Assembly (NCBI GenBank): GCA_025934385.1
Contig: JAICYE010000022.1
Location: 1-12,550 of the forward strand
DNA: 12,550 nucleotides
DNA from: Acidimicrobiia bacterium
Lineage (GTDB): Bacteria > Actinomycetota > Acidimicrobiia > IMCC26256 > BP-133
Direction of reading: 5' to 3'
Both the position numbers and the translations under genes were made by a program. Positions 3,019-12,550 of the stretch are shown piece after piece (position 1 is the stretch's first letter; each line of letters starts with the position of its first letter). A model generated the notes under the pieces. That model made no database searches. It saw nothing but the letters and a program-made list of their open reading frames with translations, and was not told the origin of the DNA.

Positions 3019-4392
3019 ATGGCCACCTACGACGAGCTACGCCGCCGCCACATCGCCGACGCGGCAGCGCTGCTGCCCGAGATGCTGGCCCGGATCGAAT
3101 GGCCGGCGGACCGGATCGCCGAACACCGGCGAGCCGAGGTGCGGCGCCTCGTGAAGACGGCCCGCGACCTCTCACCCTGGCACCGCAAGCGTCTGGCCGA
3201 CGTCGACCTCGACGAACTCGACGAGACGACGCTGGCCGAACTGCCGACCATGACCAAGGACGACGTCATGGAGCACTGGGACGAGATCGTCACCGATGAC
3301 CGCCTCCGGCTCGACGACGCCGAGGACCACCTCGCCGGGGTGGCGGCCGACGCCTATTTCCTCGACCGCTATCACATCCTCAGCACCGGCGGCACCACCG
3401 GTCAGCGGGGTGTGTTCGCCTACGACTGGGACGGGTGGGCGGTCTGCTGGTGGAGCGTCCTCCGCTTCGAGGCCCGGGCCCGCCGACGGGATCCCGAGCT
3501 GGCCGCGGCGCCGGCGATGGGCGCCACGGTGATATCGCAGTCGGCCCGCCACATCGGCAGCGCGCTGGTCCAGACGTTCTCCGCCGGTGAGATCGAATGG
3601 CACCCCTTTCCCGTCACCCTGCGGATGGCCGAGATCGTGGCCGGGCTCAACGCCGTGCAGCCCACGGTGTTGCTGGGCTACGCCTCCGCGCTCCATCCGC
3701 TGGTGCACGAGGCGGAGGCCGGCCGCCTGCGGATCTCCCCCCGGCGCATCCAGACCCCGGGGGAGCCGCTCCTGCCCGAGATACGGGCGGCGCTCGAGTC
3801 GACGTGGGACGCCACGGTCGTCAACTGCTACGGCGGGACGGAGTTCGGCGTCCACGCCGGCTGCGGCGAGAGCGCCGGTGTCCACCTGAGCGACGACCTC
3901 GCCGTCGTCGAACTGGTCGACGTCGACGGGCGGCCCGTCCCCACCGGCGTCCGGTCCGACAAGGTCTTCGTCACCAATCTCTACAACCACGCCCTGCCGC
4001 TGATCCGCTACGAGATAACCGACGCGCTGACCGCCATCGACGAACCCTGCCCCTGCGGGTCGGCCTTCCGGCGCGTCTCCGACCCCGAAGGCCGCCTCGA
4101 CGACACCTTCCGCTACGGCCCGGTCGTGGTCCACCCGCACGTGTTCCGTTCCCCGCTGGGGAACTGCCGCCCGCTCGTCGAGTACCAGGTCCGCCAGACC
4201 GGCCGCGGGGCGGCCATCGCCGTCCGGGCCATCGCCGGCTTCGACGCCCGCGCCCTGGAGGAGGAGATCTCAGCCGGGCTCACCCGGCTCGGCGTGGCCG
4301 ATCCGGAGGTGGCGGTGACGGCGGTCGACCGGATCGACCGGCAGTACTCCGGGAAGCTGACGCGCTTCGTGCCGCTGGCGGCGCAGCGATGA
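3019..4392 (+). CDS. PaaK-like (phenylacetate-CoA ligase / F390 synthetase family) adenylate-forming enzyme
   Basis: Predicted cytoplasmic ligase of 457 residues that would activate a carboxylate as an acyl-adenylate and pass it to CoA or another acceptor. The phosphate-binding motif STGGTTGQRG is near residues 122-131, YGGTEFG near 271-277, RYEITD near 330-335, and the C-terminal-domain lysine motif YSGKLTR has its Lys at about 446. Cys282, His289 and the CPCGS cysteines (344, 346) look like the metal-binding set seen in PaaK relatives. The ATG at 3019 is chosen because it follows a purine-rich ribosome site (GGGAGAGGGAG, 3006-3016) and gives a normal family length. The frame stays open far upstream, but that part is a shadow of the LuxR gene. 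The stop overlaps the methyltransferase start (ATGA). The substrate cannot be read from sequence, and no phenylacetate-pathway genes are nearby, so the name paaK is not warranted. Confidence 0.88.
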   Translation: MATYDELRRRHIADAAALLPEMLARIEWPADRIAEHRRAEVRRLVKTARDLSPWHRKRLADVDLDELDETTLAELPTMTKDDVMEHWDEIVTDDRLRLDDAEDHLAGVAADAYFLDRYHILSTGGTTGQRGVFAYDWDGWAVCWWSVLRFEARARRRDPELAAAPAMGATVISQSARHIGSALVQTFSAGEIEWHPFPVTLRMAEIVAGLNAVQPTVLLGYASALHPLVHEAEAGRLRISPRRIQTPGEPLLPEIRAALESTWDATVVNCYGGTEFGVHAGCGESAGVHLSDDLAVVELVDVDGRPVPTGVRSDKVFVTNLYNHALPLIRYEITDALTAIDEPCPCGSAFRRVSDPEGRLDDTFRYGPVVVHPHVFRSPLGNCRPLVEYQVRQTGRGAAIAVRAIAGFDARALEEEISAGLTRLGVADPEVAVTAVDRIDRQYSGKLTRFVPLAAQR

Positions 4393-7724: not shown

Positions 7725-7761
7725 TGGTCACGAACCTGCCACATGTGCAGGTTCGTGACCA
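7725..7761. repeat. Strong inverted repeat, 15-bp arms (TGGTCACGAACCTGC)
   Basis: TGGTCACGAACCTGC (7725-7739) is matched perfectly by its complement at 7747-7761, around a 7-nt centre containing ACATGT. Allowing a 2-nt bulge, flanking TTTCTG (7719-7724) also pairs with CAGAAAA (7760-7766), so the structure spans about 50 bp. It lies in the gene-free stretch between the methyltransferase start and the tmRNA 3' end. The length and perfect match look like a dispersed palindromic (REP-like) repeat or a regulator site. Which one cannot be told from this window. Confidence 0.65.
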
Positions 7762-7833: not shown

Positions 7834-7844
7834 GCCCGGTGCTG

Positions 7845-8207
7845 TGGAGGTGGCGGGAGTCGAACCCGCGTCTTCCAAGCTCTTGACAGGGCTTCTCCGA
7901 GCGCAGCCGGCGAGGGAATCTCAGGCGGTCACCGATCACCGGCCCTCGATGACCACCCCAGCCCGGAAAGGTGTCCCATCGGGGCCCCGGGCGGGCCCCT
8001 CAGGTGAGTCGCTCAACATGACGCCCGTAAAACCGGTCGAGCGACTGGACCGGAACCGGACGCGCTGTTTGTCCTAGGTGAAACTAGGCAGCGAGAGCCA
8101 TCTGAGGCTCGGCGTTTATTTGTTTTCCCGGATTTTTTACGAGGACCCCGGGGTCCCTCGGCTCGCTTCACCTGCCTTGATCCTCAGAATCGAAACCAAG
8201 CACCCCC
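7845..8207 (-). ncRNA. ssrA: Transfer-messenger RNA (tmRNA)
   Basis: 363-nt tmRNA that, with SmpB, frees ribosomes stalled on broken mRNA and adds a degradation tag. Read on the minus strand, the 5' end is GGGGGUG followed by the conserved GGUUUCGA. The 3' end has a T-arm with GCGGG, loop UUCGACU and CCCGC, then CACCUCC and discriminator A. GGGGGUG and CACCUCC make a 7-bp acceptor stem with one G-U pair. The terminal CCA is not encoded (the DNA continues CAG). The tag frame is at 8113-8084: it begins at GCC after UAAAC, encodes AEPQMALAA and ends at UAG, giving the usual ALAA ending. The exact resume codon is inferred by comparison with other actinobacterial tmRNAs. The gene lies just after smpB on the same strand, the common actinobacterial order. 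Length and both ends fit a one-piece tmRNA. Confidence 0.95.
8084..8113 (-). other. tmRNA proteolysis-tag reading frame (AEPQMALAA)
   Basis: Nine codons GCC to GCC plus stop TAG encode AEPQMALAA, which with the Ala charged on the tmRNA gives a ten-residue tag. The ALAA end is the signal read by ClpXP-type proteases. UAAAC just before the first GCC resembles the UAGUC that sets the resume codon in Escherichia coli. The same frame is open upstream (back through GKQIN), so a longer tag is possible but less likely. Confidence 0.75.
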
Positions 8208-8248: not shown

Positions 8249-8389
8249 TCACTCGCTCCCCCGGTTCCGGGCCCGCATCGCCCGGTCGGCTTCGCGCTTG
8301 GCGTCCCGTTCGGCCATCGCCTGACGCTTGTCCCACTGCCGCTTGCCCCGGGCGACGGCCAGCTCGAGCTTGGCCATCCCGTCGCTGCA
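8249..8389 (-). other. SmpB C-terminal tail, in frame but after an internal TAA
   Basis: The 46 codons and TGA stop (8249-8251) that follow the TAA at 8392-8390 stay in the smpB frame. They encode [20 protein letters not shown], continue [20 protein letters not shown] and end near GSE. This is a typical SmpB tail: the [10 protein letters not shown] and DKRQ segments form the basic helix that enters the mRNA channel. Family proteins have Tyr and an aromatic residue just before this stretch, where here TAA and TGC (Cys) stand. The tail shows no other decay. It would be made only by readthrough or if the TAA is a sequence error. Confidence 0.85.
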
Positions 8390-8776
8390 TTAGACCTTGA
8401 GCGGCACCAGCGTGAGCCCGGGCTCGTTGAGCTTGCCCAGGAGCCGGTCGATCTCCGCCCGGTGGAGCAGCAGCTTCCGCCGTCGGGTCGGGTCGTGGCC
8501 GATGCGGGCGAAGGGGTAGGGCGAGACATGCATGCCGTACAGCCACACCTCGCCGGCCTCGATGCGGGCGAAGGCGTCCCCGATATTGGCTCGACCGTCC
8601 CGGATCGACTTGACCTCGGAGCCGAGGAGCACGATGCCGCACTCGTAGGTGTCGAGGATGAAGTACTCATGGCGGGCCCGCCGGTTGGCGATGGCGACCC
8701 GGTCGCGGGCGGCCTTGCCGTCGGTCTTGGCGCCCCCGGAGGCGGACTTCGGCATGGGGAGAACCGTACCTGGCAC
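8390..8776 (-). CDS. smpB: SsrA-binding protein SmpB, interrupted by an in-frame TAA
   Basis: SmpB binds the tRNA-like part of tmRNA and carries it into stalled ribosomes. The body of the family is clear: ANRRARHEYFILDTYECGIV, LLGSEVKSIRDGRANIGDAF, then WLYGMHVSPYPFAR, HDPTRRRKLLLHRAEIDRLL and LTLVPLKV. This is the complete OB-fold core. The frame stops at TAA (8392-8390) after 128 codons, where homologues continue with a Tyr-aromatic pair and about 45 residues of tail; that tail is still encoded downstream (8389-8249). If read through, the protein would have a normal length near 165-175. I chose GTG 8776 because GGGAGG (8788-8783) lies 6 nt before it; ATG 8755 lacks a site. The start codon is only 17 bp from the start of the divergent CoxL-like gene. 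tmRNA follows downstream. Truncated SmpB lacking the tail is known to bind tmRNA but not support tagging. Confidence 0.9.
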   Translation of the reverse strand: MPGTVLPMPKSASGGAKTDGKAARDRVAIANRRARHEYFILDTYECGIVLLGSEVKSIRDGRANIGDAFARIEAGEVWLYGMHVSPYPFARIGHDPTRRRKLLLHRAEIDRLLGKLNEPGLTLVPLKV

Positions 8777-8793: not shown

Positions 8794-11070
8794 GTGACAG
8801 GCACATCGATCCTCGGAAACCCCGTCAGGCGTATCGAGGACCCCCGCATCCTCTCCGGCGGCGCCCGCTACGTCGCCGACCTCGACCTGCCCGGCGCACT
8901 GACCGCCGTGTTCGTCCGCTCGACCATGGCCCACGCCCGCCTCGAGGGCGTCGACACCGGGGTGGCGGCCAAGATGCCCGGCGTCGTGGCCGTCTACACC
9001 GCCGCCGACCTCGACCTCCCCGACATCCCGGCCTTCGCCATGGCCCCGCCGCCCATGAGCCGGCCGCCGCTGGCCAAGGGCACCGTCCGCTTCGTCGGCG
9101 AGACCATCGCCCTCGTCGTGGCCGAGACGCCGCAGCAGGCGGTCGACGCCGCCGGAGAGGTGGTCGTCGACTACGACCCCCTCGACGCCGTGGCCGACCC
9201 CGAGGCGGCGCTGGCCGACGGCGCCCCCGTCCTGTTCCCGGAGCACGGCAGCAACCTGGCGGTGGAGTTCGACTTCGGCCGGATCCCCGATGTCTTCGGC
9301 GGCGCCGACACCGTGGTCTCCGGCCGCATCCGCAACCAGCGGCTGGCGCCCGTCCCCCTCGAGGTCAATGCCGCCGCCGCCGTCCCCGAAGACGACCGCC
9401 TCACGCTGTGGGTCTCCAACCAGCACCCGTTCGGCGTGCGGGACCCGCTGGCCGGCACCCTCGGGCTCCCGGCGGAAAAGGTGCGGGTCGTCTGCCCGGC
9501 CGTGGGCGGCGGCTTCGGGGCCAAGATCGGCCTCTACGCCGAGTACGCCGTGATCGCCGCCGCCGCCCGCCGCCTCGACCGGCCGGTCCGGTGGGTCGAG
9601 ACCCGGTCCGAGTCGATGACCTCCCTGGTGCACGGCCGGGCGCAGATCCAGGACGTCGAGATCGGGGCCCAGGCCGACGGCACCATCGTCGGGCTGCGGG
9701 GCCACCTCATCGCCGACGCCGGCGCCTATCCGGCGATCGGCGTGTTCCTTCCCAGCCTGACCCGGATGATGGCGGCGGGGGTCTACGCCATCCCGAGGAT
9801 CGACGTGCGGGCCTCGGTGGCGGTCACCAACACCAACACCGTCGGCGCCTACCGGGGCGCCGGCCGGCCGGAGGCGGCGGCCATGGTCGAACGGGCCGTC
9901 GACATGGTGGCCGCCGAGCTCGGCCTCGACCCCGTCGAGGTCCGCCGCAAGAACCTCATCCCGCCGTTCGACCAGCCCCACAACACCCCCGTGGGGGCCA
10001 CCTACGACGTCGGCGACTACGGCCGGGCCCTCGACGAAGTCGTGCGCCTCGCCGGCTACGACGACCTCCGGGCCGAGCAGCGGGCCCGCCGGGACCGGGG
10101 CGACCGCATGGCCCTCGGCATCGGCGTCAGCGTCTACGTCGAGGTCACCGGGGCCGGGCCCGTCCCGGAGTTCGGCTCGGTCGAGGTCCACGCCGACGGC
10201 ACCGTCACCGCCCAGACCGGTACGTCGCCCCACGGCCAGGGCCACGAGACCGCCTTCGCCCAGATCGTCTCCGCCACCCTCGGCGTCCCCATGGAGCAGG
10301 TCCGGCTGGTCCACTCCGACACCGACGCCGTCCCCGAGGGGCAGGGCACCTACGGCTCCCGCTCGCTCCAGCTCGGCGGCAGCTCGATCCTGGTGGCGGC
10401 CGAGCAGGTGCTCGACATGGCCAGGGGACGGGCGGCCAACCTCCTCGAGGCCAACCCCGACGACGTCGTCCTGTTCGAGGACGGGCGGTTCGGGGTGGCC
10501 GGCACCCCGGCCCGGGCCCTGACCTGGAGCGAACTGGCCGCCGTCGACGGGGGCGAGGGGCCGCTCCGGGCCGAGGCCAAGCACCCGCAGTCCGGCCAGA
10601 CCTACCCGTTCGGCGCCCACGTGGCGGTGGTGGAGGTGGACACCGAGACCGGCGCGGTGAACCTTCTCCGGATGGTCGCCGTCGACGACTGCGGCCGCGT
10701 GCTCAACCCGCTGCTGGCCGAGGGGCAGGTCCACGGCGGCCTGGCCCAGGGCATCGCCCAGGCGCTGTTCGAGGAGTTCGCCTACGACGCCGACGGCACG
10801 CCGCTGACCGCCACGCTGGCCGACTACCTCGTGCCGAGCGCCGCCGAGCTGCCGAGCTACGAGACGGCCCACACCGAGACGCCGACGTACCTCAACCCGT
10901 TGGGAGCCAAGGGCATCGGCGAATCGGGGACCATCGGGTCGACTCCGGCGGTGCAGAACGCCGTCGTCGACGCCGTCGCCCACCTCGGTGTCCGTCACAT
11001 CGACATGCCCTGCACCCCCGAGCGGGTGTGGCGGGCGATCCAGGCGGCGCGCAGGGGGGCGGCGAGCTGA
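8794..11070 (+). CDS. Molybdenum hydroxylase large subunit, form II CoxL-like (xanthine dehydrogenase family)
   Basis: Predicted 758-residue cytoplasmic subunit that would hold the molybdopterin-cytosine-dinucleotide cofactor and oxidise a small substrate by hydroxylation. The N-terminal domain starts [21 protein letters not shown], the usual family opening. Cofactor contacts include VGGGFGAK (237-244) and the glycine-rich [12 protein letters not shown] region. The active-site loop is [11 protein letters not shown] (351-361): AYRGAGR marks form II enzymes, whereas true CO dehydrogenase has AYxCSFR with a catalytic Cys. The base Glu is in GAKGIGESG (Glu710). GTG 8794 is the start that opens the domain at the family position. 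It lacks a ribosome site and may be leaderless. The usual FAD (CoxM) and iron-sulfur (CoxS) partner genes are absent on both sides. Its stop lies within the mec start region. Activity on CO is unlikely, and the substrate is unknown. Confidence 0.9.
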
Positions 11071-11525
11071 ACTCGACGGTCCCCGACGGCTTCGCCGACC
11101 CGACGCTGCGGCTGCCCCGGAGCGAGTACCTCAAGATCATCGGCCACTGCTACGACGGCCTGCCCGACGAGGCCTGCGGGCTGCTGGCCGGCCGCCTCCG
11201 CCCCGGCTCGCTCGTGCCCGACGGGCGGATCGACGTCGTCTTCCCGACGGGGAACGCCGACGCCTCGGCCCGCACGTACTCGGTCGACTCCCGCGACCTC
11301 ATCCGCAGCCTCCGGGCGGCGGAGTCGAGAGGGCTGGAGCTGGTCGGCGTCTTCCACTCCCACACCCACACCGAGGCCTGGCCGTCGCCGACCGACGTCC
11401 GCCAGGCCATGGAGCCCGGCTGGTTCTACGTGATCGTGAGCCTGAAGGACGGCGATCCGGTGCTCCGCTCCTTCCGCATCACCGACGGGAACATCCGGGA
11501 GACGCCGGTCGTTCTCGAAAGCTGA
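11028..11525 (+). CDS. mec: JAMM/Mov34 metallopeptidase, Mec-like (CysO-cysteine peptidase)
   Basis: Predicted zinc peptidase that releases cysteine from the CysO-cysteine adduct in the CysM/CysO/Mec route. The JAMM signature is complete: Glu48 in DEACGLLAG, His110 and His112 in FHSHTHTEAWP, and Ser120 and Asp123 in SPTD, the standard HxH-7-SxxD spacing. About 150 residues is the normal size for bacterial single-domain JAMM proteins. The identification as Mec rests on the motif plus cysO and cysM directly downstream, the same order as in Mycobacterium tuberculosis. The start is uncertain: GTG 11028 is the only usual start codon and overlaps the CoxL-like gene by 43 bp, but it lacks a clear ribosome site. 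CTG 11067 is preceded by AGGGGGG, overlaps the upstream stop as CTGA and would give 152 residues. Residues before about 20 do not look conserved. Confidence 0.88.
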   Translation: MAGDPGGAQGGGELNSTVPDGFADPTLRLPRSEYLKIIGHCYDGLPDEACGLLAGRLRPGSLVPDGRIDVVFPTGNADASARTYSVDSRDLIRSLRAAESRGLELVGVFHSHTHTEAWPSPTDVRQAMEPGWFYVIVSLKDGDPVLRSFRITDGNIRETPVVLES

Positions 11526-11539
11526 CTGGATCGTGAGCA

Positions 11540-11568
11540 TTTTGTAGACGGGTTTTTGTAGACTGGGT
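11540..11568 (+). promoter_or_regulatory. Tandem TTTTGTAGAC repeat upstream of cysO
   Basis: TTTTGTAGAC occurs at 11540-11549 and 11554-11563, a 14-bp period, each copy followed by a G-rich step (GGGT, TGGGT). This AT-rich patch stands out in the 59-bp gap between mec and cysO. It could be an operator or a promoter: TAGACT (11559-11564) resembles a -10, though no good -35 was seen at 17 bp. It would let cysO-cysM be controlled apart from mec. Confidence 0.45.
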
Positions 11569-11584
11569 GTGGAGGTTCACCGTG

Positions 11585-12550
<966 letters not shown>

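Follow-up and report, generated by a model that had tools for sequence, protein, structure and literature searches.

An in-frame TAA in the smpB gene of an Acidimicrobiia contig, private to this sequence and most likely of ordinary origin

The smpB frame and its interrupting stop

The DNA analyzed here, hereafter the window, comprises positions 1 to 12,550 of contig JAICYE010000022.1 from an Acidimicrobiia bacterium (assembly GCA_025934385.1). Its minus strand carries smpB, whose product is the partner of tmRNA in trans-translation, as a reading frame (8249..8755) that runs from an ATG at 8755 to a TGA at 8251-8249 with one interruption. The ATG at 8755 is the likely start, and an in-frame GTG lies upstream at 8776. 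A body of 121 codons (8393..8755) is followed by an in-frame TAA at codon 122 (8390..8392), by a TGC codon for Cys (8387..8389), and then by a C-terminal part of 45 well-kept codons and the TGA (8249..8386). As revealed by translation of the minus strand from 8776 to 8249, the frame ends in RNRGSE* after the internal stop. Past the TAA, an in-frame ATG opens a frame of 42 codons (8252..8377), which is represented in the protein database by entry P0122, the window's own predicted protein, on a contig of 12550 bases.

The body alone exceeded both NCBIfam SmpB cut-offs, with 140.9 bits for NF003843 (cut-off 130) and 127.3 bits for TIGR00086 (cut-off 119.1). When the stop was replaced by X, the whole frame reached 195.8 and 172.6 bits, respectively; the tail alone remained below the cut-offs (37.5 and 33.5 bits). 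The first-pass annotation of this DNA had reported an smpB gene with an in-frame TAA at the conserved Tyr and an intact tail beyond it, and the translation, the profile scores and the relatives described below confirm this description. An in-frame stop that is flanked on both sides by conserved SmpB sequence is more than a chance occurrence. TAA stops are few in genomes of high G+C content, and it had also been noted correctly that no other gene here uses TAA: TGA closes the smpB tail and each of the eight other genes that finish inside the window, and the tag frame of the window tmRNA is closed by TAG.

Protein relatives were collected with the smpB body as the query, and the best 120 of 5741 hits were analyzed; the protein database was clustered at 90% identity, so that close copies are possibly hidden. 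The body reached 90% identity to these relatives, and the whole frame was 89% identical to one of them, P0002. In the 117 relatives that were readable at the stop site, the residue was Tyr in 100 and Phe in 17, and the next residue, Cys in the window, was Phe in 116 and Leu in one. The three relatives without a readable site were P0044, which keeps the tail, and P0070 and P0082, which end earlier. None of the 120 listed relatives ends at the same valine as the truncated body. The truncated body of the window itself (8393-8755, minus strand) was absent among these 120 hits, though its tail protein was found. Three of them carry an Acidimicrobiia name (P0068, P0074 and P0101; also P0104). The window gene resembles an ordinary SmpB of the Acidimicrobiia in the identity of its body, up to 90%, and in the adjacent tmRNA, but differs from it at the two codons at 8392-8387, which are out of family.

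A search with the tail for a record of the same allele yielded P0122 and seven other proteins, all seven of which keep the aromatic pair at the site. Among P0123-P0128, several are N-terminally short SmpB fragments with the aromatic pair kept; four start near GKLN or LVPLK, and one sits on a 31-kb contig. Such fragments may reflect contig edges, frameshifts or the choices of gene callers.

At the DNA level, tblastn gave a match in 138 of 139 sequences (138 relative loci and the window), which yielded 124 distinct cores, the window included. The residue at the stop site was Tyr in 120, His in two and Ile in one of the 123 distinct relative cores. An internal stop from query residue 25 onward was found in none of these 123 cores (0/123), and the window alone has one; six relative loci have a stop before the conserved body begins, at query residues 9-18. 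At the site, the codons are TAC TTC in G007 and TAT TTC in G001, the two nearest genomes, whose identity to P0002 is 81% and 79%, respectively. The first-pass annotation had named a change from TAC TTC to TAA TGC by two substitutions as the simplest. The inferred differences lie at 8390 and 8388, 2 nt apart, each in a nearly invariant aromatic codon.

Wider searches gave an smpB match in 48 of 58 genomes of the order and none in 10, and in 354 of 395 genomes of the class and none in 41; the genomes without a match could represent real losses or plain incompleteness. Stops were flagged in five of the 48 matches from the order, and in all five they lie at the gene end or ahead of the start. Among the class-level matches listed, eight further rows were flagged, and in seven the stop is at the gene end or ahead of the start. 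The eighth, L132, has no stop in the residues shown, and its position at the end is inferred. Among the relatives examined, the stop is private to the window; on both sides of it the frame is conserved.

The predicted product and the neighborhood of smpB

The structural consequence of termination at the TAA was evaluated on a model of the relative P0002, which had a mean pLDDT of 81.3 with a deeper alignment; an earlier model from 44 sequences reached only 50.4. The P0002 model gave 21 PDB matches with E ≤ 0.001, all of them by title SmpB, tmRNA-complex or trans-translation entries. The stop site corresponds to P0002 residue 123, which is placed inside a strand (115-125), and a further strand (128-138) and a helix (144-166) lie beyond it. 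A product that ends at the first stop is therefore predicted to lack a complete barrel as well as the C-terminal tail helix, whereas the C-terminal part of the frame would hold the last barrel strand and the tail helix. The first-pass annotation had taken termination here to yield a tail-less SmpB. This has to be corrected: because the stop precedes the last barrel strand in the model, the product would not be merely tail-less. In E. coli SmpB the tail comprises residues 131-160 (PMC3968760), and for Tremblaya it has been considered that truncations into the SmpB barrel may inactivate the protein (PMC4131195).

Downstream of smpB on the minus strand lies an intact tmRNA gene, ssrA (7844-8207), which matched the Rfam model over its full length with 133.2 bits and encodes the tag AEPQMALAA. 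G007 has the same tag, and G001, which is about equally close, has ANEQYALAA. By eye, a terminator-like hairpin is present directly 3' of the tmRNA. A perfect 14-base inverted repeat, ggtcacgaacctgc / gcaggttcgtgacc, was observed at 7726-7760 (minus reading), between the tmRNA and methyltransferase genes.

Upstream of smpB, and divergent from it, is a molybdopterin-binding gene of the xanthine-dehydrogenase type (8794-11070); matches to this gene also adjoin smpB divergently in the two nearest genomes. It is followed on the plus strand by JAB-domain, ThiS-like and PALP (cysteine-synthase-like) genes in a row (11067-12548), an arrangement that also stands in L002 and that presumably resembles the actinobacterial sulfur-carrier cysteine pathway. 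A Pfam match above the cut-off was obtained for eight of the nine other genes of the window, and the gene at 3019-4392 gave a weak AMP-binding match (25 bits versus 29.9).

A probable sequence error or a possible recent nonsense allele

The codons TAA TGC at 8392-8387 (minus strand) probably represent a local two-base error, in base calling or in assembly, within an otherwise ordinary smpB gene; the weights that we attach to this and to the other explanations are a matter of judgment and were not computed. Between an error and a real private mutation, we infer the former. In the actual organism, the gene would then encode an uninterrupted SmpB that acts in normal trans-translation together with the tmRNA beside it, and the stop site would call for no special mechanism.

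The pattern of departures from the family bears on this point. Where 44 relatives are conserved to 90% or more, the window deviates in four columns: a V to L and a Y to F change, both of which are mild, and the two adjacent positions at the stop. The chance that two randomly positioned changes in smpB are separated by no more than 3 nt is about 1.2%, and hence a single local cause is favored, be it a double mutation or an error of base calling or assembly. Relative to G007, 22 of 45 codons are identical in the tail, with 9 amino-acid differences, and 54 of 103 in the body, with 20 amino-acid differences. From this comparison the tail appears free of decay, with conservation similar to that of the body.

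Two other local origins were considered and rejected. A pair of frameshifts in place of the substitutions required more events in gapped alignments with the nearest relative, as judged by eye. Copying of a template from another part of the window found no support, since a search for GTCTAATGCAGC that allowed up to 2 mismatches hit the site only.

Several observations weigh against an error. The eight other genes that finish inside the window have open frames up to their normal stops. Five relatives are in agreement at 221 of the 370 columns of a tmRNA alignment, and at these the window tmRNA has three single-base insertions but no substitution. Taken together, the open neighboring frames and the clean tmRNA indicate that the general error rate is low and that the contig is not generally poor. 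In addition, adjacent pairs of radical private residues occur elsewhere (12 in xdhA, 2 in the JAB gene, 1 in the ThiS gene and 0 in cysM, a rough count against only 2-4 more distant relatives), so that a pair of unusual neighboring residues is not diagnostic by itself. Finally, the consensus of several reads normally removes random errors.

The same accuracy of the contig speaks for a real, private and recent nonsense allele, arisen by a double or a two-step mutation, in which trans-translation would be lost or reduced and the tail would not yet have decayed. We consider this quite possible, though less probable than an error. An intact tail and an intact tmRNA are compatible with a very recent event, and broken smpB genes are known in sequenced bacteria (PMC4131195, Table 3). 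On the other hand, such an allele requires two changes 2 nt apart at nearly invariant codons in a gene otherwise without decay, and the absence of internal stops from the 123 distinct relative cores indicates that smpB is normally kept. The passages of PMC3598801 that were consulted describe no nonsense mutation of smpB.

The known cases offer a comparison. In a survey of 2031 bacterial genomes by Hudson et al. (2014; PMC4131195), Table 3 lists, by our count, 16 strains with a pseudogenized, frameshifted or truncated smpB gene. These are inactivating changes in smpB, as in the window, but frameshifts account for 13 of the 16, again by our count, and the remaining three belong to strongly reduced genomes; according to that work the frameshifts, all but one that its authors discuss, could be sequencing errors. 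The smpB gene of Hodgkinia TETUND1 has two TAA stops (PMC4131195). The window differs from these cases in that a single in-frame TAA interrupts an otherwise undecayed gene on a high-G+C actinobacterial contig.

Recoding, restart and the meaning of the stop

Three readings had been offered in the first-pass annotation: an error, a recent nonsense allele, and a stop that is read through. The first two stand as discussed above. Readthrough would have been supported by a TAA conserved among relatives, and on this point it fails, given that 0/123 distinct relative cores carry the stop. Recoding, restart and a change of the genetic code are, even when taken together, unlikely. In particular, it is very unlikely that the TAA is real and that few ribosomes pass it or restart 12 bases further on, such that this strain would make little full SmpB and ribosome rescue would be throttled by the efficiency of termination within smpB itself.

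Functional readthrough of the TAA, by which the ratio of short to full SmpB would be fixed, would yield the full protein, and the conservation of the tail, close to that of the body, is in its favor. Work with E. coli reporters (PMC11126739) provides points on both sides: in one sample, a TAA took Tyr, Gln, Lys and Ala, and a G just upstream of the stop favored readthrough (here AGGTC precedes the TAA), but a T after the stop, as is found here, favored termination, and the mean level at TAA was 0.01-0.05% of wild type in rich medium. UAAU has been proposed as the most efficient termination signal of bacteria, with UAA the stop that is least read through (PMC5289835); the preference for U at the +4 position was not seen in the high-G+C species of that study, which ascribed this to the rarity of UAA. 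The 100 bases downstream of the TAA fold no better than shuffled sequences (z = -0.30), which is a weak point against readthrough, as readthrough was uncorrelated with predicted structure (PMC11126739). Readthrough also leaves unexplained the Cys at the next, nearly invariant Phe position. No description of smpB readthrough was found among the papers listed by the literature searches, as judged by titles and the openings of abstracts. With a stop that is not conserved, we regard functional readthrough as highly improbable.

Equally improbable is a split SmpB, in which translation would resume twelve bases past the TAA, at the in-frame ATG of position 8377, and the body and a C-terminal piece would associate. 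The ATG does lie closely downstream and in frame, and the 42-residue product, P0122, was predicted by a gene caller. A Met at this position is, however, ordinary in intact relatives (21/44), the cut would fall inside one predicted barrel strand and leave the last strand on the other piece, and the aromatic pair is preserved in all seven of the other short tail proteins found, none of which therefore represents the same split.

A programmed frameshift of the type known from prfB, the gene for RF2, was rejected, because the downstream part of smpB is in the same frame and not in another. Among known modes of control it nonetheless comes closest, in that a gene of termination carries an in-frame stop and is controlled through termination (PMC12421855). 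The window differs in having its tail in the same frame and in having a stop that is TAA and private; moreover, the prfB frameshift motif was absent from all 2,658 Actinomycetota surveyed (PMC12421855).

Finally, that TAA is a sense codon in the source organism is extremely unlikely. No TAA ends any of the eight other genes that finish inside the window, but at 72.7% G+C such stops should be rare in any case (PMC5289835), and the tmRNA tags of G030 and G031, from the order of the nearest genome, end in TAA (the tag ends read in eight order-level relatives were TAG in five, TAA in two and TGA in one), so that TAA serves as a stop there.

We conclude that the observation is correct and that its explanation is most likely ordinary, with no new mode of gene control. 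Readthrough, if true, would be remarkable, since an error of translation would then govern the very factor that copes with failed translation. If the TAA is a real nonsense allele, the few broken smpB genes on record would gain one more, a modest advance. The case is mainly a caution: when a conserved gene on one contig shows a lone private stop, reads have to be consulted before a mechanism is proposed.
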